Assembly: GCA_019636795.1 (NCBI GenBank)
Contig: JAHBWW010000002.1
Coordinates: 372,001-436,000, forward strand
DNA: 64,000 bases
Source of the DNA: Phycisphaeraceae bacterium
Lineage (GTDB): Bacteria; Planctomycetota; Phycisphaerae; Phycisphaerales; UBA1924
Reading direction: 5' to 3'
How positions within the stretch are numbered: the first letter of the stretch is position 1; each line of letters starts with the position of its first letter. Below the pieces are notes generated by a model. It ran no database searches, was not told the DNA's origin, and was given only the letters and a program-made list of their open reading frames with translations. A program made the translations under genes and the position numbers. Below, in pieces: positions 32,592 to 51,311 of the stretch.

Positions 32592-32761
32592 CGATCACAC
32601 TCCTTCTTCGTGCGGATACCGCCCACATCGAAGTTCGGCTCTTTCCGCCACGAACTCCAATTCGGACCCGCCCGTCACATACAACGAATCAATCGTTCGT
32701 AACGAGCACCACCCAATTTCGGTGTTAGATCGCTCGGCCACTGACCGAATCCCGACTCGCC

Positions 32762-33742
32762 TCAGACCAGATCGAGCCCATCATCAACCGCTTCAACCTC
32801 TTCCGACTCATCCAGCGTCCGAAGCGTGATCCCGATCTCCTCAAGCCTCTCCTTCACTTCCTGCAGCGAAGTCGAGCCGAAGTTCTTGACCCCCATCAAC
32901 TCCGCCTCAGTGTGGGTGATCAGATCCCCGATCGTCTGAATATTCAGTAGTTGCAGCGCCCGACGCGCACGAACCGACAACTGCAGGTCCGTCACCATCT
33001 TGTTCGCCAGCGACTCGTGCCCGCTGCCCTTCAAACGCTCGATCACCTGCCGCCGAGCAGCACGGTGCGCATCCTCAAGCCCCTGCCCAAGCCGCAGGTT
33101 CTTCTGCTGAAGCATCCGCTTGATCTCTTCCAGCGAGCTCTCCCCGAAGTTCTTGTAACTCATCAGTTCCACCTCGGTGATCCGCAACAGATCCCCCAGC
33201 GTCCTGATGTTCATCTTCTTCAGGCATGTCCGCGCACGCACCGACAACTCAAAATCCGTCACCGGCGTATCCATCAACGCCTTCTTCTGCACAAAGTCCC
33301 GATCCGATTCCTCTTCGATCACCATCTCACGGCTCGCCTGCACATCCTTCATGAACAGCCGCGCACGCACATGGTTCGGGTTCGTCTCCAGAATCTGCCT
33401 CAGACAACGCTCCGCACGAATGTAATCCGCACGGTCCTCATACAACACCGCCAGATTCAGCAGCCCATTGATCGGTGCCGGAGTCGTTTCGCACACCCGC
33501 TCATACAGCGACAGCGCCTCGTCCTCTTCCCCCACCAGATCCAGCAGATACGCCAACTGGAACATCGCGTCCACGCTCATCGGGTCCGCACCAACTGCCT
33601 TGCGCAACTCCGCAATCGCACCCAGCTTGTCGCCCGCGTTCGCAAGATTCGTCGCCGCATGAAAATGCCGCTGCGACGCCTCCACGTCACGATCCGCAGA
33701 ACTCCCCGCACCGATCACCAGATCCATCGGACTCGTCGCCAT
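32762..33742 (-). CDS. TPR protein with two RNA polymerase alpha C-terminal domains
   Basis: The 326-residue protein has TPR-like repeats at about residues 22-135 (LGAIAELRKAVGADPMSVDA, then EDEALSLYERVCETTPAPIN, then YIRAERCLRQILETNPNHVR). Two tandem copies of the alpha-CTD fold follow, at about 159-218 (DFELSVRARTCLKKMNIRTL, MSYKNFGESSLEEIK) and 248-308 (DLQLSVRARRALQLLNIQTI, MGVKNFGSTSLQEVK). In RNA polymerase this fold binds UP-element DNA and activators. The alpha N-terminal dimerisation domain is absent, so this is not rpoA. Proteins with this layout are known from planctomycetes but have no established role, as far as I know. Transcription or DNA binding is inferred. It ends with an acidic tail. 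Confidence 0.88.
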   Translation of the reverse strand: MATSPMDLVIGAGSSADRDVEASQRHFHAATNLANAGDKLGAIAELRKAVGADPMSVDAMFQLAYLLDLVGEEDEALSLYERVCETTPAPINGLLNLAVLYEDRADYIRAERCLRQILETNPNHVRARLFMKDVQASREMVIEEESDRDFVQKKALMDTPVTDFELSVRARTCLKKMNIRTLGDLLRITEVELMSYKNFGESSLEEIKRMLQQKNLRLGQGLEDAHRAARRQVIERLKGSGHESLANKMVTDLQLSVRARRALQLLNIQTIGDLITHTEAELMGVKNFGSTSLQEVKERLEEIGITLRTLDESEEVEAVDDGLDLV

Positions 33743-33811
33743 ACCGCCTCCGTTCCATGTCTTGTGGAACCCAGACAGTAGCCCCGCCGCACCACCAAGG
33801 CCACGCTCCCC

Positions 33812-35407
33812 CTACAGCCCAGGCCCCGGCGCCACCTCGTCCACCGGAAGATTGTGCAGCACATCCGACCCATGCGTCAACCTGATCGACCGCCAACGCC
33901 CCGACATGAACCGCAGCAGCAGAATCACCCCCAGCAGCACAATGTATCCCGAAGCCCCGATCCAGGGCCCGATCGACCCCAACCCAGGACTCGTCCACAT
34001 CAGCAGATGCCCCAGCCCCACAATGCTCACCCAGCTCAACACCACCGTCGCAATCCCCGGCCACACCGTATCCCCAGCCCCGCGCAGCGCCGCCGACATC
34101 ACAATCGCCACCGCATCAAACACCTGAAACACCGCCGCCGCGATCATCACCTGCCCGCCAATCCGCAGCATCTCATCCCGCTGGGTCGCTGGCGTCTCCG
34201 GGTTGATAAATAACCCGATCAACTCATGCCGAAACGCCACAAACACCACCGCGCAAAGCCCCATATACCCAACCGCCAACTTCAACCCAAGCCACGCACG
34301 TCGCGCAGCCTTGTCCGGGTCACCCTCCCCGATCGCCTTTCCCACGACCGCCTGCGTCGCGATCGAAAGCCCCACCGTCGGCATGAACGACAGATGCATC
34401 CACTGCAACGCCGCAAACCCCGCAGTGTTCGCCATCGTCGCCGCCTCCGTCGCCGCCGCAACCGTCCCCCCCGCATGCAGCACCGCCCGACGCCCAGCCT
34501 CCCCCACCAGAAACGTCATCAGATACGCCCAGCACACCAGCTCATTGATGAACATCATCCCCGCAGGCCACCCCACCCGCGCAATGTCCTTCATCTGCCC
34601 AATCCGAGGCCGCCACGCCGCCCGCGTCCCATACCGGCGCGCAAACTTCCCGCTCAGAAAAATCACCATCGGCACGCTGAACTCAATCACCGTCCCCAGC
34701 ACCGTCGCCAGCGCAGCACCCGCAAGCCCCATCGCCGGAATCCCCAGCAATCCCGCTATCCCCGCAAAAAACTCATGCGCCGGCCAACGCTCCGGAGGCC
34801 CATCCGACCCGAAAATGAAAAGCACATTCAAAAAGATGTTCGCAAGATTCCCCGTCACCGCCGCCACCATCACCACCCCAGGACGATGCATCCCGAAGAA
34901 ATAGTTGTGAACCGCCTTCGCAAGCAGCGTAAAAATCGACCCCCCCATCGCAATCGACGCATACGCCAACTCCAGTTCATACAACTCCTGCTCATGCCCG
35001 AACACCCGCAGCAGCCACGGAGCAACCAACACCGCCGGCACCATCACCACCAACCAATACCCCGCGCCAATCCACATCGCGTTCCACGCATACGCCGAAC
35101 CACGCTCCGCCTTCCCCGCACCCAGATTCTGACTCACAAACGAGTTCACAATCGAGATCATCCCGATGCAGAACGTCATCAACGTCCACGTCGCAATCGC
35201 CGCATTCCCATGCGCAGCCAGATAAATCGGCTCCGGACCAATGTCCTTGACCATCAGCCGATCAAAAAACTGCATCGCCGTATAACTCGCCATCGTCGCG
35301 ATCGACGGCAGCGCAATCACCAGCATCTCCCGCAGCGCCCGCTCCGGACCCCTCGGCGTGCCCGCTGCCCGACTACTGGATGGATTCTCTGACCCCTGCT
35401 CCACCAC
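33812..35407 (-). CDS. MATE-family efflux transporter
   Basis: MATE transporters export drugs and other organic cations using sodium or proton gradients. The protein has twelve membrane helices in two six-helix halves. The family-like segments are LPSIATMASYTAMQFFDRLM, FVSQNLGAGKAERGSAYAW (first half) and GLSIATQAVVGKAIGEGDP (second half). The start is uncertain. Adjacent GTG codons at 35407/35404 with a G-rich stretch upstream give about 530 residues, whereas the longest frame begins at GTG 35458. It lies 67 bases downstream of the pdxA start region on the same strand and 69 before the TPR-alpha-CTD gene. Confidence 0.85.
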   Translation of the reverse strand: MVEQGSENPSSSRAAGTPRGPERALREMLVIALPSIATMASYTAMQFFDRLMVKDIGPEPIYLAAHGNAAIATWTLMTFCIGMISIVNSFVSQNLGAGKAERGSAYAWNAMWIGAGYWLVVMVPAVLVAPWLLRVFGHEQELYELELAYASIAMGGSIFTLLAKAVHNYFFGMHRPGVVMVAAVTGNLANIFLNVLFIFGSDGPPERWPAHEFFAGIAGLLGIPAMGLAGAALATVLGTVIEFSVPMVIFLSGKFARRYGTRAAWRPRIGQMKDIARVGWPAGMMFINELVCWAYLMTFLVGEAGRRAVLHAGGTVAAATEAATMANTAGFAALQWMHLSFMPTVGLSIATQAVVGKAIGEGDPDKAARRAWLGLKLAVGYMGLCAVVFVAFRHELIGLFINPETPATQRDEMLRIGGQVMIAAAVFQVFDAVAIVMSAALRGAGDTVWPGIATVVLSWVSIVGLGHLLMWTSPGLGSIGPWIGASGYIVLLGVILLLRFMSGRWRSIRLTHGSDVLHNLPVDEVAPGPGL

Positions 35408-35474
35408 ACACCCCCCGAGCCGCACCCGCAGCCAAGGCGGAGGGTACACCACCGCCACTCTCGACGATCAATCC

Positions 35475-36506
35475 CTACCCCCGCCTCGCCGCCCCAGCCA
35501 GCCTCAACGCCGCAGCCATACTCCCCGCATCCGCAACCCCCTTGCCCGCAATATCAAACGCCGTCCCATGATCCGGGCTCGTCCGCACCACCGGCAACCC
35601 CACCGTCATGTTCACCGTCTCATCACGCGCAATCAACTTCACCGGGATCAACCCCTGATCGTGATACATCGCCACCACCAGATCAAACTTCCCCGCAACC
35701 GCCGCCCCGAAAATCGTGTCCGCCGCAAACGGCCCACGCACATCCATCCCCGCCTCCACCGCATGCGCAATCGCTGGCCCGATCAACCTCTCCTCCTCAT
35801 CACCCAGCAACCCGCCCTCCCCAGCATGCGGGTTCAGCCCGCACACCGCAACCCGAGGCCTCTCAATCCCCACACTCCGGCACCCCTCAACACCCAACTC
35901 GATCGCATCAAAAACCCGCCCGATCGTCAACACATTCCTCACATCCATCAGCGGCACATGCACCGTCGCCAGCACCACCCGCAGCCGCGGCCCGACAAAC
36001 ATCATCGCAACACGCTTCACCCCAAACCGGCTCGCCAGCAACTCCGTATGCCCCGCAAACTTCCCCTTCCCCGCAAGCGACCACGCCTCCTTGCTGATCG
36101 GCCCCGTCACAATCGCATCCGCCTTCACCCCAAGCGCACCCTCCCGCGCCATCGACACCGCCAGATCCACCAGCCGAAACGAATACATCCCCCCCGCCTT
36201 CGTCGCCTCACGCGCACTCCCAATCGGCCCCCAACCCCGGTCCGTGTCCATCACCACCACATCCTGCACCGAAAACTCCGCCCCGCTCCACCCATCCATC
36301 GCCACCGTCCACCAGTACGGCTCGATCCGCTGACACAACGCCGCATCCTGCAGCACACTCTCCGAACCCAGCACCACAAACCGCGCCGTTCGCCTCAACC
36401 CCCGATCCGCCAGCGCACGCACAATCACCTCAGGCCCGATCCCCCCAGGATCGCCCATCGTCACCGCAATCACTGGCCGATTCCCCTTCACAACTTCTTG
36501 TCCCAT
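35475..36506 (-). CDS. pdxA: 4-hydroxythreonine-4-phosphate dehydrogenase
   Basis: PdxA carries out an NAD-dependent oxidation in pyridoxal phosphate synthesis. Start ATG 36506 (MGQEVVKGNRPVIAVTMGDP). The 343-residue length is normal. GDPGGIGPEVI is the N-terminal family signature. The three metal-binding histidines lie in HTELLASRFG, NPHAGEGG and YHDQGLIPVK. C-terminal GLPVVRTSPDHGTAFDIAGK is also diagnostic. No other vitamin B6 gene is in the window. Confidence 0.95.
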   Translation of the reverse strand: MGQEVVKGNRPVIAVTMGDPGGIGPEVIVRALADRGLRRTARFVVLGSESVLQDAALCQRIEPYWWTVAMDGWSGAEFSVQDVVVMDTDRGWGPIGSAREATKAGGMYSFRLVDLAVSMAREGALGVKADAIVTGPISKEAWSLAGKGKFAGHTELLASRFGVKRVAMMFVGPRLRVVLATVHVPLMDVRNVLTIGRVFDAIELGVEGCRSVGIERPRVAVCGLNPHAGEGGLLGDEEERLIGPAIAHAVEAGMDVRGPFAADTIFGAAVAGKFDLVVAMYHDQGLIPVKLIARDETVNMTVGLPVVRTSPDHGTAFDIAGKGVADAGSMAAALRLAGAARRG

Positions 36507-36726
36507 AACCCCAATCCTACGGACCCCCGGCCGACCAACACACCGTATTCGGCCCCCGTTCGCATGAAACACAAACCGCCATGCCGCGTACCGTCTTCAA
36601 GGGACATCGATGTGCCGATTTTGAATAAAATCAGTTTCACGATCACGCCCCCGTTGGTATGCTGTCTATCTCGGGCATCTTTGCCCTGTCAATGTTGAGG
36701 GGAATCGAAATCAAGGAGTCTCGGTC

Positions 36727-38889
36727 ATGAAGGGTCACACCGGTCCCGGTCGTCATGTCTCATCGCTTTTCGCCCTCTGCGCCATCGCCGGCCTGGCAAC
36801 CGCAGACATCACCAATAACCAAGGCGTCCTCCGCCTCGTCGCAGGCGACTACGCAACCTCCGCAAACAACAACGTCCTCGCTCTCCCCGCGATCCCCATC
36901 GACTTCGCTCAGCACGTCGCCGTCATCCAACTCGATGGCCCAATGACCAACGCACGCAACGCCGCCCTCACAAACGCCGGCGTCGTCCTCTTCGACTACC
37001 TCCCCGACTTCGCATACGCAGCAGACCTGCGCAACGCAAACCTCAACGCGCTCGCCGCACTCGACTTCGTCACATGGGTCGGCGCATTCCAGAACGCATG
37101 GAAACTCGCGCCCGATCTCGGACAGGTCCCCGCACAATCCCCCGAAATCCAGGCATTGCACGACCTCGGACTCATCGCCGTTCAGGTCATGCTCTGGCCA
37201 AACGCAAACACCGCACAGACCCTCGCCGCACTCGCCGCAATCCCCGGCTTCACCGCGCTCGAACACGGCTGGTCAGGACGCGAAATCTCCGTCTCCGCAA
37301 CCATGCCCCTCGCAGCCGCTCAGGCAATCGCCGCCCTCCCCGCCGTCCGTTGGATCGAAAACACCCCTCAGATCACTCTCCGTAACAACACCGGACGCTG
37401 GATCGTTCAATCAAACGTCAACGGCTCCACCCCCCTCTACACCAAAGGAATCCGAGGCCAAGGTCAAATCGTCGGAATCATGGATGGGCGCATCAACGTC
37501 AATCACTGCTCTTTCCTCGATTCCATCAACCCCATCGGCCCCAACCACCGAAAAATCCGTGCATACAACGCCTCCCTCGGCTCCGACTCCCACGGCACAC
37601 ACGTCGGAGGCACCGCTGTCGGCGACGCCAGTGCAAACAACGACACACGCGGCATCGCATACGAAGCCCGCCTCGTCTTCAACACCATCTCAACCACCCC
37701 CAGCACCTTCCTCTCCCGCCTCGGAACCCACTACAGCCAAGGCGCATTCGTCCACACCAACAGTTGGGGCAACGACGGCACAACCCTCTACGACTCCCTC
37801 GCTCGCACCATCGATGTCTTCTCCTACGACAACGAAGACAACCTTGTCATCTTCGCCGTAACCAATCTCTCCACCCTCAAAAACCCCGAAAACTCCAAGA
37901 ACGGCCTCGCAGTCGGCGCCTCCGGCGACACGCCCAGCCAAAACAACCACTGCTCCGGTGGCTCCGGACCAACCAATGACGGCAGACGCAAACCCGAGAT
38001 CTACGCCCCAGGATGCAACACCACCTCCTCCTCTTCAAGCACCTCCTGTGGCACTGTCTCATTCACCGGCACATCCATGGCCGCGCCCGCTATCGCCGGC
38101 TCCGCACTCCTCGCACGCCAGTACTACACCGACGGCTTCTACCCATCAGGCGTCGCAAACTCCGAAGACTCATTCATCCCCTCCGGCGCACTCCTCAAGG
38201 CAACCCTCCTCAACTCCACCGTCGATATGACAGGCGTCGCCGGATACCCATCCAACCGCGAAGGCTGGGGACGCGTACTCCTCGCAAACTCGCTCGTCTT
38301 CGATGACTCTCCCCGCACCCTCATCATCCGCGATGTCCGCAACAACTCCGAATCCGCCCTCTCAACCTCCGATCTCGTCGAACTTCAAATCGATGTCCAC
38401 AGCTTCTCCCAACCTCTCAAAGTCACCCTCGCCTGGCACGATTCGCCCGGAAACGTCAACGCAAACCCCGCAGCCGTCAACAACCTCGACCTCAAGGTCA
38501 TCGCACCCAGCGGCGACTACCGCGGCAACGTCTTCTCCGGCGGAATCTCAACCACCGGCGGCACCCACGACGCAAACAACAACGTCGAAATGGTCATCCT
38601 CGCCGCTCCCGCACCAGGCACCTACACAATCCAGATCAACGCCGCAGCCGTCAACGTCGGCTCGCAGGGCTACGCACTCGTCATCTCCGGCGATGTATCC
38701 GAAGTCGCACCGCCAAACCCCTGCATCGCCGACTGGAACAACGACGGCAAGGTCGACTTCTTCGACGTCCAACTCTTCCTCGCCCAGTTCACAGCCCAGG
38801 ACCCCGCCACCGACCTCAATGGCGATCTCGAGTTCAACTTCTTCGATCTCCAGATCTTCCTCTCCCTCTTCTCCGCCGGCTGCCCCTGA
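36727..38889 (+). CDS. Secreted subtilisin-like (S8) serine protease with dockerin-like C-terminus
   Basis: The 720-residue protein has a signal peptide (VSSLFALCAIAGLATAD) and a propeptide-like region. The S8 catalytic domain has its triad Asp253 in GIMDGRIN, His289 in SHGTHVGG and Ser450 in FTGTSMAAP. A beta-sandwich (about residues 535-655, LKVTLAWHDSPGNVN) of the kp43/proprotein type follows. The last 60 residues hold two EF-hand-like repeats (DWNNDGKVDFFDVQLFL and DLNGDLEFNFFDLQIFL), ending in AGCP. AAGGAG lies 9 bases before the ATG. A strong terminator follows. It is probably an extracellular or surface-anchored degradative enzyme. Confidence 0.93.
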   Translation: MKGHTGPGRHVSSLFALCAIAGLATADITNNQGVLRLVAGDYATSANNNVLALPAIPIDFAQHVAVIQLDGPMTNARNAALTNAGVVLFDYLPDFAYAADLRNANLNALAALDFVTWVGAFQNAWKLAPDLGQVPAQSPEIQALHDLGLIAVQVMLWPNANTAQTLAALAAIPGFTALEHGWSGREISVSATMPLAAAQAIAALPAVRWIENTPQITLRNNTGRWIVQSNVNGSTPLYTKGIRGQGQIVGIMDGRINVNHCSFLDSINPIGPNHRKIRAYNASLGSDSHGTHVGGTAVGDASANNDTRGIAYEARLVFNTISTTPSTFLSRLGTHYSQGAFVHTNSWGNDGTTLYDSLARTIDVFSYDNEDNLVIFAVTNLSTLKNPENSKNGLAVGASGDTPSQNNHCSGGSGPTNDGRRKPEIYAPGCNTTSSSSSTSCGTVSFTGTSMAAPAIAGSALLARQYYTDGFYPSGVANSEDSFIPSGALLKATLLNSTVDMTGVAGYPSNREGWGRVLLANSLVFDDSPRTLIIRDVRNNSESALSTSDLVELQIDVHSFSQPLKVTLAWHDSPGNVNANPAAVNNLDLKVIAPSGDYRGNVFSGGISTTGGTHDANNNVEMVILAAPAPGTYTIQINAAAVNVGSQGYALVISGDVSEVAPPNPCIADWNNDGKVDFFDVQLFLAQFTAQDPATDLNGDLEFNFFDLQIFLSLFSAGCP

Positions 38890-38922
38890 TCGCCCATCAC
38901 TCCAGCCCGTAGCCTCACCCAC

Positions 38923-38953
38923 AACCAGCCTCCCCCCGAGGCTGGTTTTTTTG
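38923..38953 (+). terminator. Rho-independent terminator after the S8 protease
   Basis: AACCAGCCTC (38923-38932) pairs with GAGGCTGGTT (38938-38947) around a C5 loop. A run of seven T residues follows. Confidence 0.9.
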
Positions 38954-39028
38954 TCCCACTTCTCACTCCAGCACATCGCTGCCAAACCAGTCCGCTCAGC
39001 CTCCTATCGCCCGCATACCCTTTACCCC

Positions 39029-39397
39029 ATGCCGCGCCTCGCCATCCTTCTCATCGCACTCGGCACCGGCTGCTCTCCAGTCCCCGTCGGATTCGATTCC
39101 CCCGCCAAAACCAAGCGCATGGATGCCATCGTCCGCGCAGCCGCCGAAAACGACACCAGCCCTCGCACCATCCGTTGCATCATCCAGGAACTCGACTCCC
39201 ACGACCCCGCCGTGCGCTTCATCGCCATCCGAACCCTCGAACGCCTCACCGGCCAGACCAACGGATATGATTTCGCCGCCCTCGATTGGGATCGCGAGGC
39301 CTCGGTGCAGGCATGGGTTCGATGGTTTCACGATACTTACCCAGAACACTCAACCCCAGTGGTGATCGACGAACTCGCGGACACGACTCATGAATGA
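39029..39397 (+). CDS. Small lipoprotein with a HEAT-like repeat
   Basis: The 122-residue protein starts MPRLAILLIALGTGCSPVP, a lipoprotein signal peptide with lipobox LGTGC. The mature part contains CIIQELDSHDPAVRFIAIRT, a HEAT-like helix pair, then LERLTGQTNGYDFAALDWD and VQAWVRWFHDTYPE. This kind of small HEAT-like lipoprotein is common in planctomycetes. Its end overlaps the next gene by 8 bp, so it is coupled to the RsbW-like kinase. It may act as an envelope-side partner for that regulatory set (inference). Confidence 0.75.
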   Translation: MPRLAILLIALGTGCSPVPVGFDSPAKTKRMDAIVRAAAENDTSPRTIRCIIQELDSHDPAVRFIAIRTLERLTGQTNGYDFAALDWDREASVQAWVRWFHDTYPEHSTPVVIDELADTTHE

Positions 39398-39890
39398 GCA
39401 TCCACACATTCGCGTCGAACTCCTCAGCAACCCCGCATACCTCAGCGGTGCACGAGAACTCATCGCTTCGGTCTGCAAACGCCTCGGCTTTGACGACCTC
39501 ACCTGCTCAAAGGTCGCACTCGCCGTCGACGAAGCACTCTGCAACGTCATCCGCCACGGCTACAAATACGCCGAGAACCGCCCCATCTGGATCAGCCTCT
39601 GGCCACTCCTCGATGAACACGCCCGCCCAGAAGGCATCCTGCTCACCATCGAGGACGAAGCCGACCAGGTCGATCCATCCTGCATGAAGGGCCGAAGCCT
39701 CGAAGACATCAAACCCGGCGGCCTCGGCGTCCACATCATCCGCGACGTCATGGATCAGGTCTGCTACGAAAAACGCGAATCCAGAGGCATGCGCCTCGTC
39801 ATGAGCAAGCGCGTGCCACGCACCGCTGCCCCCGCCCGCCTGGGTCGCAACACCGAATCAGAGGGGAGCGTGCAGTCCATCGATGGCTGA
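39390..39890 (+). CDS. RsbW/SpoIIAB-like anti-sigma-type serine kinase
   Basis: The 166-residue protein has the HATPase fold of partner-switching kinases. KVALAVDEALCNVIRHGY holds the N box with E48 and N52, LLTIEDEA is the D box, and PGGLGVHIIRDVMDQVCYE is the glycine-rich ATP lid, ending in GMRLVMSKR. Such kinases phosphorylate a STAS partner and sequester a sigma factor or another target. The STAS partner is encoded next, overlapping by 8 bp. No sigma factor or PP2C phosphatase of the system is adjacent. Confidence 0.88.
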   Translation: MNEHPHIRVELLSNPAYLSGARELIASVCKRLGFDDLTCSKVALAVDEALCNVIRHGYKYAENRPIWISLWPLLDEHARPEGILLTIEDEADQVDPSCMKGRSLEDIKPGGLGVHIIRDVMDQVCYEKRESRGMRLVMSKRVPRTAAPARLGRNTESEGSVQSIDG

Positions 39891-40227
39891 ATCACCAATC
39901 CAGATCGAACGCGACAACCCCCCGGGCCTCATCGTCATAAGCCCGCTCGGCGATGTCGATATGAGCTGCTCGCCGGTCCTGCGCGCCACTCTGCGCGACG
40001 AACAGTCGAGCCGCCCGCGCCGCCTCATCGTCAACCTGACGCGTGTCGGGTATATGGACAGTTCGGGCCTGGCGACCCTTGTCGAAGCGATGCGCACCGC
40101 AAAGCGCAATGGCACCGCCATGATCCTCTGCGGCATGAACGACAAGGTCCGCGCCATCTTCGAAATCGCACGCCTCCACCAGTTCTTCACCATCGTCGAT
40201 GGCCTCGATCAGGCGCGTCAGACATGA
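39883..40227 (+). CDS. STAS-domain anti-sigma factor antagonist
   Basis: The 114-residue single-domain STAS protein contains RLIVNLTRVGYMDSSGLATL, the RsbV/SpoIIAA signature. Ser60 or Ser61 is the expected phosphorylation site. LCGMNDKVRAIFEIARLHQF follows. It overlaps the kinase gene by 8 bp and precedes an MlaE permease gene by 25 bases. Two roles are possible: antagonist in a partner switch with the RsbW-like kinase, or MlaB-like subunit of a lipid ABC transporter. The context supports either or both. Confidence 0.88.
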   Translation: MAESPIQIERDNPPGLIVISPLGDVDMSCSPVLRATLRDEQSSRPRRLIVNLTRVGYMDSSGLATLVEAMRTAKRNGTAMILCGMNDKVRAIFEIARLHQFFTIVDGLDQARQT

Positions 40228-40800
40228 TCGCCACACCAGCAGACGCACAAGAATGAACGACATGCCGGACTCCGAAAAGCCCAGGCCATCGCCGTTGCTC
40301 GTGCTCCTCTGGCCCATCGAACGCCTCGGCGCACGCGCTATCTCCATCCTCGAACACACCGGCTCGCTCGTCCATCTCTTTCTCGAAGCGCTCGGCTGGG
40401 TCTGCCGCGGCGTGTTCGGCCGAAAGGTCCGCCTCGGGCGATACGCCATCATCTCCCAGATCGTCCGTGTCGGCGTCAAGAGCGTTTTCATCGTCTCGCT
40501 GGTCTCGGGCGCGGTCGGGCTGATTCTCACACTCCAGCTCGAACCCCCGCTCAACCAGTTCGGCCAGCGCGCGCTCATCGCCAACATCATCAGCGTCGCG
40601 GTCCTGCGCGAACTGGGCCCGCTCATCGGCGCGATCGTGCTCACTGGTTTTGCCGGGGCTGCCATTGCTGCCGAGATCGGCACCATGGTGGTCAGCGAAG
40701 AGATCGAAGCGCTCGAGGCGCATGCTCTGAATCCGGTGCGGTTTCTTGTCGTGCCTCGTGTGATGGCCACGGTGCTTTCCATGACTGTGCTGGGCGTGCT
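39950..40800. other. GC-skew inflection of the window
   Basis: On the + strand C is commoner than G in coding regions of both orientations from about 9 kb to 40.6 kb, for example in nhaA (minus) and cysS (plus). G is commoner than C from about 40.7 kb to the right end, for example in sucC (minus) and atpA (plus). The change takes place within a few hundred bases. This is seen by eye; an exact skew plot was not computed. Confidence 0.75.
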
Positions 40801-41107
40801 TTCGAGTTTTGTTGCCATCGCGTCTTCGATCGGGATCTGCATTTTCCTGCTCGGCATTCCGTTTGAGACGTACATGAAAAACATGGAATCGCAGGCCAAG
40901 ATGGTCGATTTTCTGACGGGTCTGTCCAAGGGCACGATTTTCGGCGGACTGATCGGAATTATTGCGTGCGGGAACGGGCTCAAGGTAACGGGCGGGGCGG
41001 CAGGGGTGGGTCATGCGACCACAAACACGGTTGTGCAGTGTGTGGTTGCGATTGTCGTCGCGGACCTGATTTTCACGGCGATTTTCTACGCGCTCAAACT
41101 GGTGTGA
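40253..41107 (+). CDS. mlaE: MlaE-type ABC transporter permease
   Basis: Start ATG 40253 (MNDMPDSEKPRPSPLLVLLW); another in-frame start lies upstream at 40199, inside the STAS gene. The 284-residue protein matches the MlaE/TrnD permease family of phospholipid transporters: VFIVSLVSGAVGLILTLQL, VLRELGPLIGAIVLTGFAGA, AAIAAEIGTMVVSEEIEALE and LNPVRFLVVPRVMATVLSM. The expected ATPase (MlaF) and MCE-domain (MlaD) genes do not follow; the next gene is on the other strand, 2 bases away. Codon endings change from C-rich to G/T-rich halfway through the gene (near 40640-40700), where the strand composition of the whole window switches. Confidence 0.9.
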   Translation: MNDMPDSEKPRPSPLLVLLWPIERLGARAISILEHTGSLVHLFLEALGWVCRGVFGRKVRLGRYAIISQIVRVGVKSVFIVSLVSGAVGLILTLQLEPPLNQFGQRALIANIISVAVLRELGPLIGAIVLTGFAGAAIAAEIGTMVVSEEIEALEAHALNPVRFLVVPRVMATVLSMTVLGVLSSFVAIASSIGICIFLLGIPFETYMKNMESQAKMVDFLTGLSKGTIFGGLIGIIACGNGLKVTGGAAGVGHATTNTVVQCVVAIVVADLIFTAIFYALKLV

Positions 41108-41109
41108 CG

Positions 41110-42075
41110 CTAGCGTCGGTAGCCGACGGGTCGTTCGAGGAGGTTGTAGAGTTCGCGGAGCGTGACCATTCCTGCGATGCCGGCCGAGGTCAGGCCGAGC
41201 ATGATCCAGCCTTGCGCATAGAAGCCTGAGCCGAGCAGCCATGCGCATGCATAGAGCGCGAGCCAGATAGCGCCATATCGATCGATTTTTTCGGCGAGTC
41301 GCGGCCCTGGCCCGAGCGCGCGAGTTCGGCGCACGACGACGACGGCAAACAGAGCCATCAAGAGCATGCACGCAACTGGACCGAACCAGCCGTGATGAAA
41401 CGGGTCTGAGATTGGGGAGCGTGGGTGTGGCCAGTCGGGAGTCAGGAGCGCGATTGTCCAGAGGACCCATCCGGCGATTGCGAAGAACACTGCGCGGCGT
41501 GTGAGTACTGGGGTTTTGCGACCCAGGACGTGCGAGACGCCGCCGGCAAAGAGGGCGTGAGTCATGACGAGCCAGACTGGCCAGACGAAGTTGAGGGTGA
41601 CGTTTGGGATCATCATGTGTCCGGCGTATATGAGGCCGAGGAGGAGGAGGCCGAAACCTGGGATGAATTTGCCCGTTGCGTTGAAGAGGAGGACAGCGAG
41701 CAGGAGGAGGAGTGTGAGGATAACGCCGACGGTGCCTAAGACGGTTGCGCCGAGGATTGTGAGCATGAGGGTTGCGGCGGTGCTCGTGACGGCGGTCTCG
41801 ATGCGAAGGAGGCCTGAGGCGAGCGGGCGATGCGGCCGAAGCGCCTGATCGCGGTGGATGTCGAAGATGTCGTTGAGGCATGTGCCAAAGGCGTAGAGGG
41901 AACCCGCGGCGAGCGCGCCTGCGGGGAGAAGGAGCCAGAGCGGCTGGGCGAGCGAGGGCGGGGGAGTCTCGCCCGGTGCGACGCGCGACCAGAGAATGAC
42001 GAACCAGACATTGGCGATAGCGGCAAACGCGGTCGTGACGCGCGTGAGGCGGAGGACCGAGGCGAGTTTGAGCAT
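41110..42075 (-). CDS. UbiA-family prenyltransferase
   Basis: The 321-residue membrane protein has about eight or nine helices. It carries the Mg2+/pyrophosphate-binding motif NDIFDIHRD within GTCLNDIFDIHRDQALRPHR and the following arginine RPLASGLL, typical of UbiA enzymes. These attach polyprenyl chains to aromatic or other acceptors, as in quinone, haem or chlorophyll-type pathways. The second Asp-rich motif is not obvious, so the substrate is unclear. Start ATG 42075 (MLKLASVLRLTRVTTAF), with a GTG alternative 12 bases upstream. It is convergent with mlaE. Confidence 0.85.
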   Translation of the reverse strand: MLKLASVLRLTRVTTAFAAIANVWFVILWSRVAPGETPPPSLAQPLWLLLPAGALAAGSLYAFGTCLNDIFDIHRDQALRPHRPLASGLLRIETAVTSTAATLMLTILGATVLGTVGVILTLLLLLAVLLFNATGKFIPGFGLLLLGLIYAGHMMIPNVTLNFVWPVWLVMTHALFAGGVSHVLGRKTPVLTRRAVFFAIAGWVLWTIALLTPDWPHPRSPISDPFHHGWFGPVACMLLMALFAVVVVRRTRALGPGPRLAEKIDRYGAIWLALYACAWLLGSGFYAQGWIMLGLTSAGIAGMVTLRELYNLLERPVGYRR

Positions 42076-42749
42076 GCGTTCGGGCACGGGTGGGATGGTA
42101 GAGGGCGAGGCGCGGAATCGTCGTGTGGGAATGCGCGGGGAGCGGAGACTGGAGTTGCGGATGGGCGCTCGTTTGAAACTGTGATTGCGTCCTCGCTTGC
42201 GCTCGGACCTCTTTTTGTGGGTGCGAAGTGGCGGCCGGCGCGGAGGGCGGATGAGACGGCGCGCTGGAGCGTCTGGCGTTCGCGTGCGGTGTTGGCTGGC
42301 GAACGGAGCAGCAGCGATTCGAGCGTGCTGAGGGCGACAGATTGAAGTTCGGCAGCCTGGAGGCGGGCGCGGGTGTGCGCGAGGTTCTCGATGAGTGCGA
42401 TTTTCTCCTGAATGTGTGGCTGCTGGGCCCACCGCGCGATGGCGGTGACGGTGGTGCTGAACTCGGCTGCGATGTCGGGCAGGGAGAGGCCGGGCGTGGC
42501 GAGGTGGCTGAGGAGCGCGGATTCGTTGGTGCCTTCGGGGAGTGGCGAGGTGGTCGAAGGTTGCGCTGCATGCGAGGGTGCAGGTTGAGCGACAACCCGG
42601 ACCTTTGGGCTCGAGGCGCCCGGGTTGTTCGAGAGCATGTGAGCGCCCAAAGGTCCGGCGTCTGAAGGCAGCGAACGGGTGGGGTCTTGTGGTGATTGGT
42701 GGGTTGGGATTGTGGGTGTGGATGTGGGTGATGCGATCATGAGGGTCAT
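41736..42749 (-). CDS. Hypothetical HTH-like protein overlapping the UbiA gene
   Basis: The middle part reads like a genuine domain: ESALLSHLATPGLSLPDIAA and FSTTVTAIARWAQQPHIQEK resemble a helix-turn-helix, followed by a long helix (ARLQAAELQSVALSTLESLL). The N-terminal part is Pro/Ser/Thr-rich. The frame has no stop until 41736, so the last 113 residues lie in another frame of the UbiA gene and look like non-coding shadow (Ser/Arg/Pro-rich). Either the overlap is real or a frameshift hides the true end near 42100-42200. Possible starts are ATG 42749 and GTG 42854; neither has a clear ribosome binding site. Confidence 0.45.
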   Translation of the reverse strand: MTLMIASPTSTPTIPTHQSPQDPTRSLPSDAGPLGAHMLSNNPGASSPKVRVVAQPAPSHAAQPSTTSPLPEGTNESALLSHLATPGLSLPDIAAEFSTTVTAIARWAQQPHIQEKIALIENLAHTRARLQAAELQSVALSTLESLLLRSPANTARERQTLQRAVSSALRAGRHFAPTKRGPSASEDAITVSNERPSATPVSAPRAFPHDDSAPRPLPSHPCPNACSNSPRSSASRASRPRLPLSPMSGSSFSGRASHRARLPRPRSPSRSGSFSPQARSPRVPSTPLAHASTTSSTSTAIRRFGRIARSPQASFASRPPSRAPPQPSCSQSSAQPS

Positions 42750-42948
42750 GATGCACAACGGCGAAGCGATTGCAAGAGGGTTGCGGGCGAGGGTCAGGAA
42801 CTTGCGCGCGGGTGGGAGTTTGGGTGGAAAGAGTGTGGGCAAGGCAGCCGGCACCCAGCAAGAAAACTTTTCTACAACTGAGAGAACGCCTCAATAGCGA
42901 GCAGAGGGGTAGAGTCCAGTCTTCGTAAGCGCGTCGAGGAGGTGTTTC

Positions 42949-43869
42949 ATGAGCGTTCGAGTTCCTGGCCCCGCAGGAGTGCATGGTTTCAACGACCCGT
43001 GGCCAACGGAATCGCCTGGACGCGTGCAGGCTCAGCCGCCGCAACCGGCTGGGATGTGGCGGGCCGTGCCATTCAACCCGTGCGTACCGGACAAGACGGC
43101 CGTAGCGATTGTTCGGCGGCAACAGTCCGGGGGCGACTCGGTTGCAGCATTCTGGTCATTCTCATCGATGCTGCGTGCTCTTGATGCATGCTTAAAAGGC
43201 TCGAGTACACAATCGTGGGGGATACTGATTTGGGGCAGCGGCGACGGCATTGACGGGGCGGCCACGCCGGCGACTCCATTCGCGACTCTGTTCGGTGACC
43301 GGCCATTTGACTACGCCGAGTTCATGGCACTGCTTGACGAAATCCACCCGTCGTTGCCGAGCCCATCTGCTTTCAAGTTGCTTGATCTGGCGAGGGCGTT
43401 GCGCAGCGGCGATCCGCAAGCAGTGGCCGAGCAGGTGTTTGAAATCGTACCCGATCTAGTTGCGATGAAGAAAGAGCATGACGAGATGCTGTCAAAGGGT
43501 ACGCGATCAGACTGGACCGGAAACAGTGCGTCTGGTCACTCTGCCGGGCAGAAGCAGAGCGGTAAAAGGCAAGGGCCTTCGTCGCTACAACCGGCTCCGA
43601 GGGTAGAGTTTTATCATCAGTCCAAACCCGCCGGGGAGCATGCCAAAGCAGGACTTGTTCAGGCATCGTCGAGTAGCCGTGTTTCAGATCAATCGCAAAT
43701 TATGCCATCGGGCTGGGTGAAAATGGAGATCATCAGTGGCCAAATACATTCGGCGGAGGGGCGTTTGTGCGTCTACACCGAGCCATCGGGGGCGCGGTGC
43801 AAGGTTCGGGAGTGGTGTGATGGGCAAGGTAAGACGACATTTCAACTGATCGAACGCACAGGTCGGTAA
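42949..43869 (+). CDS. Hypothetical 306-residue protein
   Basis: AGGAGG lies 6 bases before ATG 42949. The protein has no signal peptide or membrane helix. It contains a globular-looking part (AFWSFSSMLRALDACLKGSS, then ATPFATLFGDRPFDYAEFMA and FKLLDLARALRSGDPQAVAE), a Ser/Gln/Lys-rich linker, and a small beta-rich C-terminal domain (VKMEIISGQIHSAEGRLCVY). GC content appears lower than in the flanking genes. No family is recognised. It lies in a short accessory patch with a nuclease-like gene and a toxin-antitoxin pair. Confidence 0.7.
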   Translation: MSVRVPGPAGVHGFNDPWPTESPGRVQAQPPQPAGMWRAVPFNPCVPDKTAVAIVRRQQSGGDSVAAFWSFSSMLRALDACLKGSSTQSWGILIWGSGDGIDGAATPATPFATLFGDRPFDYAEFMALLDEIHPSLPSPSAFKLLDLARALRSGDPQAVAEQVFEIVPDLVAMKKEHDEMLSKGTRSDWTGNSASGHSAGQKQSGKRQGPSSLQPAPRVEFYHQSKPAGEHAKAGLVQASSSSRVSDQSQIMPSGWVKMEIISGQIHSAEGRLCVYTEPSGARCKVREWCDGQGKTTFQLIERTGR

Positions 43870-43981
43870 GCGTGCAGTCAGCGGGGGTCTTGATTGTGGC
43901 GACACTGGTAGCTCAGTGCAGTGATCGGCGGCACGGGGAACGGGAGCGAGGGTGTTGGTCGCATTTTGAGCGAGGTTGTCC

Positions 43982-44512
43982 TTAACAACCGGAAAGCAAC
44001 TGTTCGACTCGAGTTGCCGAAAATCGCCAACCTGCGGGTATCCGGTCGATGGTTCCCGCGGCCTGTGACTTGTTCGTCCAGACCTGCTCTTCGTTGAGAA
44101 TGGTCTCGCCGCGTCCCTTTGCACATAACTTCAAGTGATGTGCAATCTCGATAGGGGTCGCAAGATACATGCGCGGCATCTCGGTGGTGGCCACACCGAG
44201 GAACTGCGCGAGACACAAGACCGTGCGCAGATTGTGCCGGGCCAACCAGCGGTCAATCGCCTCGTGATAATTGGCCGCACCTTTGTCTAGATATGACTGC
44301 GTGAGACCCCATCCGCCGTCCTGGCTTCCTTTCACCGAGACTTTCATTAGTCGCTCGCCCCTGCAGACCACCAAGTCGTACTCTGGTTGGTTTGCACCAT
44401 ACTGAACGGACACATCAAGACCACACCTGGCAAACAGCGCAGCAGCAAAGGCCTCGGCAGCGACGCTCACTTGCCATGAATTCATCTTGATTGGCTTGTC
44501 CGTCAGATTCAA
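43982..44512 (-). CDS. Predicted PD-(D/E)xK nuclease-like protein
   Basis: The 176-residue protein contains a possible PD-(D/E)xK core: Glu in SVAAEAFAAALFARCGLDV, the Asp in PEYDLVVCRGE, and the strand with lysine KVSVKGSQDGGW. This pattern is found in small restriction-like and intron-encoded endonuclease families. The C-terminal half (MYLATPIEIAHHLKLCAKG) is not diagnostic. The TTG start at 44512 has GGAG 7 bases upstream, and an ATG at 44485 is the alternative. It has lower GC than its neighbours. It could be a lone restriction enzyme or a relic of a mobile element. Confidence 0.6.
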   Translation of the reverse strand: MNLTDKPIKMNSWQVSVAAEAFAAALFARCGLDVSVQYGANQPEYDLVVCRGERLMKVSVKGSQDGGWGLTQSYLDKGAANYHEAIDRWLARHNLRTVLCLAQFLGVATTEMPRMYLATPIEIAHHLKLCAKGRGETILNEEQVWTNKSQAAGTIDRIPAGWRFSATRVEQLLSGC

Positions 44513-44633
44513 TTTTGCTCTCCGAGGGCTGGTTGGTAGGCACGCCCCAGTTCAGGTCAGTACAGACTGTTGCGAAAAGGTGGCACGGGGTGGTGAATCA
44601 CGGAGCGCGGCTGGTGGCACGCGGCCTGAGCCT

Positions 44634-44828
44634 CTAGCCCGCATCGCGTTGATGTCTTGAGGGTGCCTTGCGAATCGGGGCCTTTGACTCGCGCTGGAGT
44701 TCTTTGAGGTGTTGGCCGAGGCGGCGAATGTCGTTGCCAAATTGTTCGGAGACTTGCCGTCTGGCATTGCGAACTTCTTCGATCAAAGGATCAGGTGCTG
44801 GGGCGGGATTGCTTGGTTTTGTATTCAT
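44634..44828 (-). CDS. Antitoxin-like small protein, partner of the PIN toxin
   Basis: Start ATG 44828 gives a 64-residue protein (MNTKPSNPAPAPDPLIEEVR). It consists of a flexible N-terminus and one charged helix, VRNARRQVSEQFGNDIRRLG, then a basic tail. Small proteins of this type are typically encoded beside PIN-domain toxins. It overlaps the end of the toxin gene by 4 bp, so toxin comes first and the two are coupled. No DNA-binding motif was recognised. Confidence 0.65.
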   Translation of the reverse strand: MNTKPSNPAPAPDPLIEEVRNARRQVSEQFGNDIRRLGQHLKELQRESKAPIRKAPSRHQRDAG

Positions 44829-45295
44829 GGTGATGACCAGAGCATCTCGGGGGTAACGATGGATGGGGCCACCAAGCCGAGGCGGCGGCAGATGACTTGG
44901 AGGTGCTCTACCTTGTTCGGGTTTGCAAGGTGGCGAACGTTCCAACTGAGGACATATGTCATTGCGTGAACAGCGGCGACGGCGATGTGCAATGCATCGC
45001 CTGCAACCGGGCCGGGCATCACGCGCTCGCGGACGAGAACCTCCGCAACACCCAGCACTTCGTCGCTGATGTCAAGACGCGGTATCGCGGAGATGTGTTC
45101 AAGGGCGGCTTCGCTCTGGCGAAAACCAGGTTGGCTGAGCTCGACGATTACCTCCTCAGAGACGGTGCAATCGTAACGTGACGAAAAGTGCATCCACCAC
45201 TCAAGGCTTGTTTCGCGTCGGTAGACACTCGCGGCGTCGTCACGATCGGTGACGCACGCGCTGACGAAACTGGTTTCGAGATAGACCCCGTCCAT
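44825..45295 (-). CDS. PIN-domain toxin (VapC-like ribonuclease)
   Basis: The 156-residue protein has the PIN pattern. YLETSFVSACVTDRDDA stands at the first acidic position (Glu in place of the usual Asp, as in the YLET subfamily). CTVSEEVIVELSQPGF carries the conserved Glu, PVAGDALHIAVAAVHA the conserved Asp, and YVLSWNVRHLANPNK the terminal part. PIN toxins cleave RNA, often tRNA or rRNA, until bound by the antitoxin. It starts 18 bases after sucC on the same strand, in the place where sucD is often found. Confidence 0.85.
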   Translation of the reverse strand: MDGVYLETSFVSACVTDRDDAASVYRRETSLEWWMHFSSRYDCTVSEEVIVELSQPGFRQSEAALEHISAIPRLDISDEVLGVAEVLVRERVMPGPVAGDALHIAVAAVHAMTYVLSWNVRHLANPNKVEHLQVICRRLGLVAPSIVTPEMLWSSP

Positions 45296-45313
45296 GACTA
45301 GAGTGTATCCGAT

Positions 45314-46513
45314 TTACCCCACCGCCCTGACGACCTTTTTCCCCGCATCCAGCAGGTCCGTCGCGGCCTCGAGGGTTGGGAGGTCGGCTGCGGCGGCGGT
45401 GAGGATTTTTCGGCCGTTGTCGACGTTGTTGCCTTCGAGGCGGACGACGAGGGGGACTTTGAAGCCGACTTCTTTGGCGGCGTTGACGATGCCCTGTGCG
45501 ATGACGGCGCAGTCCATGATGCCGCCGAAGATGTTGACCATGATGCCTTTGACGGCGTGGTCGGAGAGGATGATGCGGAATGCTTCGGTGACGGCTTCTT
45601 CGGAGGCTGAGCCTCCGACATCGAGGAAGTTTGCGGGTTCGCCGCCGCAGTGTTTGATGGTGTCCATGGTGGCCATGGCGAGTCCTGCGCCGTTGACGAG
45701 GCATCCGATGTTGCCGTCGAGAGCGATGTATGAGAGGCCGAAGCGCTGGGCGCGGAGTTCGGCGGGGTTTTCTTCGCTTGGGTCGAAGAGTGCGGCGATG
45801 TCTTTGTGGCGGAAGGTGGCGTTGTCGTCGAAGTTGAACTTGGCGTCGATGGCGAGGACCTGGCCTTCGGGGGCGTCGGGGGTCGGGGGGGTGACGATGA
45901 GGGGGTTGATCTCGGCGAGTGAGCAGTCTTTGGCGGTGAAGAGATCGGCGAGGCTGAGCATGATTTTGACGGCCTGGTTGATCTGGCGGCCCTTGAAGCC
46001 GAGTTTGAAGGCGACGGTGCGGGCCTGGTGCGGGGCGAGGCCGAGGAGGGGATGGAGCGGGGTTTTGATGATGGCGCCGGGGTTGGTTGCGGCGACGTGT
46101 TCGATATCGACGCCGCCTTCGGCTGAGGCGATGAGGATGTTGCGGCGCGTGGTGCGGTCGGTGGTGATTGCGAGGTAGTACTCGTGTGCGATGTCGACGC
46201 CTGCGGCGATGAGGAGTTTGGTGACTTCGAGTCCTTCGGTGCCGGTTTGAGGAGAAACCATGCGATTAGTGAGCATGAAGCGTGCGGCGTCGCTTGCTTC
46301 TTCGGGTGAGCGGACGAGTTTGACGAATCCGGCCTTGCCTCGGCCTCCGGCGTGGACCTGGGCTTTGACGACGACGAGGGAGGTGTTGCCATCGGCGGCG
46401 ATTTGTTTGTATGTGGTTGCGGCGTCTTCGATGGATTCGATGACGCGGCCTGGGGGGACTGTAATGCCTGCGGAGGCGAGGAGTTCGCGGGCTTGATACT
46501 CGTGAATTTTCAT
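45314..46513 (-). CDS. sucC: Succinyl-CoA synthetase, beta subunit
   Basis: The beta subunit of succinyl-CoA ligase in the citric acid cycle binds the nucleotide and forms the active site with SucD. Start ATG 46513 (MKIHEYQARELLASAGITVP). The ATP-grasp features VVKAQVHAGGRGKAGFVKL and GCLVNGAGLAMATMDTIKHC are present, and the CoA-ligase domain contains VKGIMVNIFGGIMDCAVIAQ and VRLEGNNVDNGRKIL. The 399-residue length is normal. sucD is not adjacent on either side. Confidence 0.95.
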   Translation of the reverse strand: MKIHEYQARELLASAGITVPPGRVIESIEDAATTYKQIAADGNTSLVVVKAQVHAGGRGKAGFVKLVRSPEEASDAARFMLTNRMVSPQTGTEGLEVTKLLIAAGVDIAHEYYLAITTDRTTRRNILIASAEGGVDIEHVAATNPGAIIKTPLHPLLGLAPHQARTVAFKLGFKGRQINQAVKIMLSLADLFTAKDCSLAEINPLIVTPPTPDAPEGQVLAIDAKFNFDDNATFRHKDIAALFDPSEENPAELRAQRFGLSYIALDGNIGCLVNGAGLAMATMDTIKHCGGEPANFLDVGGSASEEAVTEAFRIILSDHAVKGIMVNIFGGIMDCAVIAQGIVNAAKEVGFKVPLVVRLEGNNVDNGRKILTAAAADLPTLEAATDLLDAGKKVVRAVG

Positions 46514-46908
46514 GTGGGCTCCTGATCTGGGTGAGATGGTAGTCGAAGTTTGGCGCAAGCGGGCGATAGGTTTTTGTATGGTTTCAATCAAGAAGATGCC
46601 CTGTTGTGGCGGTAATTTGGTTGCATTCGGGGCAGAGTTTGGTAAGAATGGGGTGAGTGTGAGTTTTGGGTACTTTATCACCGGTTGTGGTGGGAGGCGC
46701 TGAAGCGGGCGAGGATTGAATCGGGGCTGTTGGCGCTGGCATAGGAGATGTGTTTTCGGCTAGACTAGGGCCGAGTGATGTGGAAAGAGGTTGATGGGCG
46801 ATTTCCCGCTTGATGTGCGCGGGTTTCGGTTCCGGGAAGAAGGAAGGCCGATGTGAGTCTGATGGATCGGACGGAGTTGGCCTTTCGAGAGGGACGAAGG
46901 AGTGTGTG
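46514..46908. other. Divergent intergenic region between sucC and the LuxR-type gene
   Basis: This 395-base region separates two divergently transcribed genes, so it should contain both promoters. I saw no clear -35/-10 pair, no RNA gene and no convincing small gene. A peptide read from about 46578 has two adjacent cysteines (MPCCGG) but no ribosome binding site. Confidence 0.5.
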
Positions 46909-47901
46909 ATGGGCGAGTCTGGGCATTTCAACGCGTCGAGTTTTGATGCGGTTGTGCGTTCGTGTGAGCGGCTGTGCGGGCTTCCGGCGGTGGCGACACT
47001 GGATTGGACGGACCGTGCGGCGCGTGCGCTTTCGGTGTTGCTGGCGCCGAGCCGCGTGTGCGTGATGATTGCGCAGGCGGAGCCATCGGGGCGGATCTCG
47101 GCGCTTGAGGCGGCGGGGTGCGGTTCGTGTCTGACGCGTGAGGAGGCGCTGCTTCCTGCGAGTGCGTCGTGGACTGATGCAGAGAATGCGAACGCTGCGG
47201 GGGTGGACATTGCGATTCGGAGTCGTGCGGATCGTGTGCGTGAGTTGGGTTTCAGGCTTGATGGGTTGAAGCCTCGGTCGAGTATGGTTGGCTCGGCGTC
47301 GCGTTTTGCGGGTTCGGAGTTGTGGCGGACTTCTGCGGTCGGGGCGGTGTGGGTCGGAACGGATGTGACTGATGTGCTGATGAGTGTGAGTTCGCTTGGC
47401 GAAGGAAGCACGGGGCGGTACGTGGTGGTGCAGATTGGGCTTGTGGGGCATGGAGCTGCGGGGCCAAGGCGTGTTGCGGTGGAGCATCAGGCGTCGCTGG
47501 AGTCGCTTTTGCCGCTGTTGTCGCGTCGGGTGCTGCTGGCGCTTGGGGCAACGCCTTCGACGGAATCGACATGGCTGACGGTGCGTGAGCAGCAGGTGCT
47601 GGAGCATCTGGTGCTGGGTAAGAGCGTGCGACAGATAGCGGATGATCTGGGACGAAGCCCGCACACGGTGCACGATCATGTGAAGAGCCTGCACAGGAAG
47701 TTGGGGGCTTCGAGCCGTGGCGAGTTGATTGCGCGGGCGCTTGGGTACATTGAAGAGGGCGCGCGCATTCGCGATGAAGAGTCGAAGGTAGCGTCGGTGC
47801 ATGAGCCGAAACTTGCGGTTGGGCGCGATGCGGACGATGTTCCGGATGTGGTGGTTCGGCCGACGGAACCGGTGCGTGCGACGCGACCGACGGGGGCGTG
47901 A
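46909..47901 (+). CDS. LuxR-family transcriptional regulator
   Basis: AAGGAG lies 6 bases before ATG 46909 (MGESGHFNASSFDAVVRSC); the frame is open upstream, but this start is best. The 330-residue protein has an N-terminal region of about 215 residues that may be a sensory domain (RAARALSVLLAPSRVCVMIA). The LuxR/FixJ helix-turn-helix lies at about 223-280: LTVREQQVLEHLVLGKSVRQ, IADDLGRSPHTVHDHVKSLH and RKLGASSRGELIARALG. No receiver Asp or autoinducer-binding motif was recognised, so the signal is unknown. A terminator follows. Confidence 0.88.
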   Translation: MGESGHFNASSFDAVVRSCERLCGLPAVATLDWTDRAARALSVLLAPSRVCVMIAQAEPSGRISALEAAGCGSCLTREEALLPASASWTDAENANAAGVDIAIRSRADRVRELGFRLDGLKPRSSMVGSASRFAGSELWRTSAVGAVWVGTDVTDVLMSVSSLGEGSTGRYVVVQIGLVGHGAAGPRRVAVEHQASLESLLPLLSRRVLLALGATPSTESTWLTVREQQVLEHLVLGKSVRQIADDLGRSPHTVHDHVKSLHRKLGASSRGELIARALGYIEEGARIRDEESKVASVHEPKLAVGRDADDVPDVVVRPTEPVRATRPTGA

Positions 47902-47954
47902 AGTGCTGGCGATGCGTGGGCGTCGGTGATTGATTGATGTGGCAGGAACCATTC

Positions 47955-47982
47955 GGGGGCGCGGGCCCCCGGTTTTTGTTTT
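47955..47982 (+). terminator. Rho-independent terminator after the LuxR-type gene
   Basis: GGGGGC (47955-47960) pairs with GCCCCC (47965-47970) around a 4-base loop, and GGTTTTTGTTTT follows. It lies between convergent genes. Confidence 0.75.
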
Positions 47983-48002
47983 GTAGTGCGTGCCGTCGCG
48001 GC

Positions 48003-51273: not shown

Positions 51274-51311
51274 GGCTCGCGGGGGAATTGCCCCGATATC
51301 AGGCAGAACTG

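Follow-up and report, generated by a model that had tools for sequence, protein, structure and literature searches.

Textbooks assign bacteria a single replication origin per chromosome. Departures from this rule are known in Synechocystis 6803, Nostoc 7120 and other cyanobacteria, which replicate from multiple origins without DnaA and have a roughly constant read-depth ratio and irregular GC skew (PMC7198777). Several origins were also proposed from skew for Wolbachia, Wigglesworthia and Mycoplasma pulmonis, in a source that itself warns that multiple polarity changes can have other causes (PMC3269012), and double oriC candidates have been described in bacteria (PMC4403523). The skew peaks of one chromosome in SkewDB were ascribed to possibly several origins, inversions or assembly problems (PMC8941118), and abnormal skew was elsewhere removed by flipping repeat-bounded segments (PMC7111523). 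For human N-domains, the skew gradients between upward jumps are read as gradients of fork polarity, to which skew is proportional when asymmetries are small (PMC3320577). Among open-licence titles and the starts of abstracts, we met no report of multi-origin replication or of comparable skew in Planctomycetes or Phycisphaer-named taxa, which is weak evidence of novelty.

We analysed a stretch of 64,000 nucleotides (the window, C2:372001-436000) from G000, a 3.49-Mb Phycisphaerales draft genome of 8 contigs and 97% completeness, in which the initial annotation had claimed a sharp GC-skew reversal inside mlaE. The reversal is real and the gene was correctly named: an intact MlaE permease gene at 40199..41107 (+) (PF02405, E 2e-63) contains a minus-to-plus changepoint at 40,628, with a 3-log-unit interval of 40,585-40,697 in the binomial changepoint analysis and a minimum of the cumulative G-C curve at 40,627-40,645. 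The maximum cumulative deviation was 5,063, far beyond the 1,888 that was the most obtained when 500-bp blocks were shuffled 1,000 times. Mean raw GC skew was about -0.36 across 20-40 kb and about +0.3 across 46-64 kb of the window. At four-fold sites the skew changed from -0.94 (3 to 1.5 kb left of the changepoint) and -0.44 (within 1.5 kb) to +0.48 (within 1.5 kb right) and +0.87 (3 to 6 kb), corresponding to a composition of 75-77% C with 2-3% G to the left and of 78% G with 6% C to the right; at these sites A exceeded T on the left and T exceeded A on the right.

The transition was not clearly a single step. A linear ramp about 1.3 kb wide (1,275 bp, with its centre 261 bp to the left of 40,628; 39730..41004) fitted the neutral sites (those that are four-fold degenerate or lie outside gene calls) better than a step by 5.3 log units, and we consider this segment a candidate replication initiation zone. 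The flank that is C-rich on the + strand (9319..40584; four-fold skew -0.44 to -0.94) and the G-rich one (40698..64000; +0.48 to +0.87) would then be the domains of leftward and rightward forks, respectively. The negative skew of the former continues, with interruptions, past the left end of the window, and the positive skew of the latter extends beyond it to C2:460-470 kb; at four-fold sites 50 to 60 kb away from the jump, skew was zero on the right and remained at -0.5 on the left. A positive patch at 6-9 kb was rejected as a skew domain, for it corresponds to the 23S (6182..8928, +; RF02541) and 5S (9057-9163, +; RF00001) rRNA genes, both head-on to the presumed leftward fork. These genes are unlinked from the sole 16S rRNA gene found (C2:237341-238823, -), which lies about 139 kb off on the opposite strand and is co-oriented with its presumed fork. 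To the right of the jump, small ORFs (43982-44512 and 44634-45295, both -) resemble by eye a nuclease-like protein and a PIN-type toxin-antitoxin pair.

Transcription-linked asymmetry or codon selection could shape local skew, and several weak jumps in this genome do sit at divergent gene pairs, where amino-acid composition can shift raw skew and may inflate them. However, gene orientation explained next to nothing of the four-fold skew (R2 0.002; 1,099 genes with data of 1,202 scored), and the skew of a gene correlated with that of its opposite-orientation neighbours (r 0.69) and of intergenic DNA (r 0.75), which follows the same domains. In a pool of 8 strong jumps the skew profile was the same for genes on the + and the - strand, and the pattern persisted at neutral sites. 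The strand-symmetric, replication-type signature that had been proposed is thus supported, with skew independent of transcription direction as in N-domains, and the explanation by transcription or codon selection is largely refuted and very improbable. Co-orientation of genes with the presumed fork was not significant (121/226, P 0.32).

The surroundings of the changepoint were compared with those of mlaE in other genomes, a match to MlaE being present in 30 of the 31 searched (our own included). In the window, a gene run at 39029..42087 spans the jump and comprises an ORF without Pfam hit, HATPase_c_2, STAS and MlaE (+), followed by a UbiA-like gene (-) that scores below the Pfam cut-off and is the convergent neighbour already noticed in the initial annotation. 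We collected 79 MlaE loci from named relatives, mostly titled Phycisphaerales, Phycisphaerae or Planctomycetota, and picked 32 for gene order by tblastn. HATPase, STAS and MlaE were consecutive in 30 of the 32, the order being interrupted in L237 and ended by a contig edge in L239. The UbiA-like gene lay directly 3' of MlaE and convergent in 16/32 loci, 3-5 kb farther on and convergent in 4/32 (including the close relatives L219 and L220), displaced or turned in 4/32, and was not found in 8/32; genes farther to the left of the run were barely common to the relatives. The broken gene order expected of an inversion breakpoint was not found. Two records, 'Cyanobacteria bacterium CYA N2_1' (L217) and 'Leptolyngbya sp. 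PLA1' (L270), have an MlaE that is 80% and 63% identical to that of the window, respectively, the former also keeping the HATPase-STAS-MlaE order; both look like mislabelled planctomycete MAGs. An assembly join or chimeric contig at mlaE might be suspected in a draft genome, but the intact MlaE, its neighbours ordered as in many independent genomes and the many similar jumps, including those in the assembly of another genus (G012, below), make it barely credible.

The inflection at mlaE is one of many in the draft genome. In the 1.88 Mb that we sampled, jumps were scanned with 3-kb flanks and a minimum change of 0.22 at 46,313 gap-free test positions every 25 bp (about 1.16 Mb), with genes called by a custom script that missed short ones. 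The raw scan gave 25 up-jumps and 7 down-jumps, among which the up/down pair at C2:377.9/380.9 kb was rejected because it is the 23S/5S genes; without it, 24 up-jumps faced 6 down-jumps (P 0.0014), and the sign-changing ones numbered 22 and 3. As divergent gene pairs may inflate weak raw jumps, the scan was repeated on neutral sites, where 32 up-jumps and 11 down-jumps were obtained (23 versus 2 if sign-reversing, 7 versus 0 above a size of 0.6). The jump measure is the same whichever strand is read, so the up/down asymmetry is physical. Three 50-kb stretches of the E. coli chromosome, used as control, had a largest rise of 0.18 and a largest fall of -0.28.

The maps of contigs C1 and C2 have the form of a sawtooth, in which skew drifts slowly to negative values, jumps abruptly to positive ones and decays. 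As in N-domains, up-jumps are sharper and more frequent than down-jumps, and the gradual fall with a change of sign between jumps is present in part, some stretches being near zero. GC skew was anticorrelated with AT skew (r -0.65, 389 bins), and in the pool of 8 strong jumps the excess of T over A tracked that of G over C at four-fold sites and both decayed gradually. The mean raw decay around 18 jumps was short, about 16-24 kb on the right side, and successive jumps were spaced by about 13-255 kb. Changepoints fell inside called genes in 13 of 25 cases. Both skew signs were present on every sampled contig, and no clear two-arm bias was seen within C1 or C2, each taken as a separate contig of the draft.

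The relatives had no counterpart of the mlaE jump. Four-fold skew compared between the two halves of mlaE in 20 relatives did not change comparably (largest rise 0.23, L218), raw profiles across the gene in 11 relatives had no jump, with L196 drifting up below threshold, and those in 32 of the 79 loci had none inside the gene. The up/down asymmetry typical of N-domains was also not seen around mlaE in relatives, with 6 up-jumps and 4 down-jumps in 1.11 Mb (loci L217-L293 of at least 8 kb); loci L186-L196 added 1 and 2, respectively, in 0.21 Mb. Of the six up-steps in raw skew, five precede mlaE by 0.7 to 3 kb (L249, L264, L265, L273 and L292), and these may reflect the effect of a divergent gene pair on raw skew or, possibly, a related initiation zone. 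Since the jump is near-saturated at four-fold sites here and absent inside mlaE in the relatives compared, the site appears to be long-lasting in this lineage and not shared.

Outside the mlaE locus, G012, from another genus of the family, had a similar sawtooth over 200 kb, with 4 up-jumps and 2 down-jumps (+0.25 was exceeded at 298 test positions, and 24 fell below -0.25). The sawtooth was weaker in the 182 kb of G002, with 1 up-jump and 0 down-jumps above 0.22 plus weaker rises (134 test positions above +0.25, 0 below -0.25), and G015 was flat across the 40 kb examined. Conservation of jump positions was considered and rejected, as ORFs near the four jumps of G012 and one of G002 map mostly far from the jumps of our genome; the exceptions were a pair of ORFs from a single G012 jump, 0.8 and 1.6 kb away, an ORF of G002 at 6.7 kb, and others at 11-15 kb. 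The skew of pnp in 13 genomes was extreme in G002 (-0.88) and weaker elsewhere, and is hard to interpret because highly expressed genes may prefer C. Two complete chromosomes were sampled at 30 small loci each. The skew of PNC22 was irregular, and that of H1_PLA1 at four-fold sites was negative in 10/14 loci up to 1.5 Mb, positive in 10/11 at 1.57-3.1 Mb and again negative in four of the final five; values reached 0.8, and there were strong local exceptions. This partly two-armed look may mean that a global, single-origin component coexists with a local one.

A single origin whose very strong two-arm skew had been broken up by many inversions, with the jumps as breakpoints, would account for both skew signs on every contig sampled, for the long stretches of mostly one sign in H1_PLA1 and for the approximately equal up- and down-jumps around mlaE in relatives. 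Every inversion, however, creates one upward and one downward edge, both sharp, which does not fit 22 versus 3 sign-changing jumps, nor does a breakpoint fit the intact MlaE, the widely kept order of its neighbours and the smooth decay on both sides of the jumps, and we consider this explanation improbable.

Marks of a canonical origin were absent from mlaE. With TTATCCACA, which we take to be the DnaA-box consensus, the window had 2 one-mismatch boxes where 5.4 were expected, none of them within 1 kb of the changepoint (the nearest, at 41,715, is 1.1 kb off), in agreement with the initial annotation, which had seen no DnaA-box cluster. An AT-rich unwinding element, for which a search had been suggested, did not appear either, AT content within 250 bp being 0.38 against a background of 0.386, with no dip in the profile. 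Over the 25 jumps, 6 one-mismatch boxes were within 1 kb and about 4 expected, so that boxes were not enriched; as candidates for a shared motif, DnaA boxes and 7- to 10-mers at 20 well-placed jumps were rejected, being not beyond chance for the words tested. Of the two dnaA genes in the genome, one is at C1:184.8 kb and the other, 168 kb from mlaE, at C2:244.2 kb; mlaE thus combines none of DnaA-box cluster, adjacent dnaA and AT-rich region. Both dnaA genes sit at up-jumps: the changepoint on C1 (185,792) is at the 3' end of the gene and is followed 0.4 kb farther on by an exact DnaA box, and that on C2 (246,329) is about 1 kb from the gene. At least one dnaA match was present in 31/31 genomes, and the dnaA loci of 29 relatives had no comparable skew step with 1.5-kb flanks. 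PriA and DnaB are present in our genome.

Intergenic repeats were associated with the jumps. Segments with at least 6 repeat partners made up 7/68 of those within 2 kb of up-jumps and 14/1,149 of those elsewhere (P 8e-5), and comparison of 25 jump regions (25 of 31 cross-matches listed) led to a hairpin, a short intergenic palindrome that often lies directly after a gene. Its alignment (A1, 19 copies; consensus start CnGGACGCCGG) contains a compensatory base pair (UA in 12 copies, CG in 7) as well as a pair that is U-G in most of them (13/19), which hints that the aligned strand may be the functional one. In the genome, the covariance model built for it (R1) scored 37 copies at more than 60 bits and another 2 at around 42 bits. 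The copy in the window (42586..42665, -; 74.9 bits, E 9e-17; fold z -3.7), one of the 19 aligned, lies 2.0 kb right of the mlaE jump and points at it 5' to 3'. Of 20 strand-clusters of hairpins, 11 had a raw up-jump within 4 kb and 1 lay close to a down-jump, and the up-jump was on the 3' side of the hairpin in 10 of 11 clusters for raw jumps and in 11 of 11 for neutral-site jumps. Nine clusters were away from raw up-jumps, one of these in unsampled DNA. Six of the seven largest jumps, that of mlaE included, have a hairpin within 4 kb, the one without being on C5. With the five discovery-linked jump regions excluded, the oriented skew step at hairpins had a P of 0.004 (0.012 in a strand-flip control; 10 clusters with data).

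Model R1 had no match at E 1e-4 in 40 relatives, none of them of the same genus, with strict filters by which weak matches may be lost; the loci fetched from relatives gave weak matches, the best of 31 bits (L269), and one 3.5-kb stretch with two copies had no match in Rfam. The hairpin is unlikely to cause the sawtooth because G012 has no convincing copy. By analogy with IS200/IS605 elements, whose insertion preference is set by fork direction (PMC6006769), it may be a mobile single-strand hairpin inserted according to fork direction, or it may alternatively be a lineage-specific part of the sites. It is, like REP/BIME sequences of the TnpAREP/RAYT type, a short intergenic palindrome often found after genes, but differs from their description in that source by the absence of a GT[AG]G foot in the 19 copies and by its polarity relative to skew. 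At C6:197824-213665, 14 copies flank a jump at 204,283, two (+) on the left and 12 (-) on the right; some are spaced by about 110-120 bp, and the adjoining genes are phage-like by eye. A second short repeat, r1, had 9 matches, four of them less than 2 kb from up-jumps (C1:103267, C2:74896, C2:179787 and C6:87135), with a polarity opposite to that of the hairpin; its copies are few and come from the same biased comparison of jump regions.

We favour, at slightly less than even confidence, the reading that the mlaE jump marks a fixed zone of bidirectional replication initiation, of which the chromosome would have dozens. Forks would depart from the zone both ways. Leading and lagging strands would differ in their mutations, and these differences, built up to near saturation, would make the leading-copied strand rich in G and T; farther out, forks from neighbouring zones would be equally frequent, and skew would approach zero within tens of kb. 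We infer in this that fork direction causes the skew and that initiation occurs at the jumps. Proportionality of skew to fork polarity is not assured here, because the asymmetries are large. As DnaA boxes are not enriched at jumps, our guess is that a DnaA-independent, PriA-type loading would operate. The 24 jumps in about 1.16 Mb of gap-free positions, when scaled to 3.49 Mb, would suggest about 70 zones, including weak ones. Of the three options offered initially, a cryptic origin therefore fares best, as one of many and not as the origin of the chromosome, while inversion breakpoint and assembly join are disfavoured by the intact MlaE, the order kept in 30/32 loci and the 24 up-jumps versus 6 down-jumps.

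The main rival is a local, strand-asymmetric process other than ordinary origin firing, in which, for example, recurrent breaks or R-loops at fixed sites would lead to outward recombination-dependent or repair synthesis on top of replication from a single origin. The decay over tens of kb with many other stretches near zero, the lack of an origin motif at jumps, the 13/25 changepoints within called genes and the resemblance of the H1_PLA1 samples to two arms with local departures are all compatible with it. The strand that leads outwards from the site nevertheless has the excess of G and T expected of outward forks, and, by reasoning, breaks that underwent simple 5' resection with deamination of cytosine should leave the reverse sign; a four-fold skew of about 0.9 seems to need very frequent action. 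We hold this repair- or recombination-driven process to be fairly unlikely. Returning to initiation zones, a broader proposal, which we advance with somewhat more reserve than that for mlaE itself, is that this Phycisphaerales lineage has dozens of fixed and efficient initiation sites without DnaA-box clusters, arranged in eukaryote-like N-domains, with turnover of sites between genera and polar hairpins at their edges.

If true, the placing, licensing and coordination of several origins would become testable in bacteria, and growth-rate estimates that assume one origin-terminus gradient would be undermined in this clade. The cyanobacterial exceptions to the single-origin rule are described as having irregular skew and near-constant read depth and not a fixed-site sawtooth (PMC7198777). 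Even if caused by repair, four-fold skews of about 0.9 that reverse within a gene point to a strand-asymmetric mutation process worth explaining.

Archaeal origins are few and linked to Orc1/Cdc6, whereas here there would be dozens of sites and no common initiator was seen. The likeness to archaeal multi-origin chromosomes lies in several fixed origins that leave skew minima (PMC3269012). With cyanobacteria the chromosome shares many inferred start sites and a dnaA that is present yet perhaps not decisive (PMC7198777), but here the sites are fixed, sharp and polar in skew, and are read from sequence. Like the proposals for Wolbachia, Wigglesworthia and Mycoplasma pulmonis (PMC3269012) and those of double oriC (PMC4403523), ours is drawn from several changes of skew polarity; here it is joined by tests of the up/down asymmetry, of gradients at neutral sites and of gene order at one site. 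Compared with human N-domains, the pattern is bacterial, is read from the genome sequence alone, has jumps about 13-255 kb apart instead of megabase domains and reaches four-fold skews of about 0.9; common to both are the sharp upward jumps of skew and its gradual decrease between them (PMC3320577).
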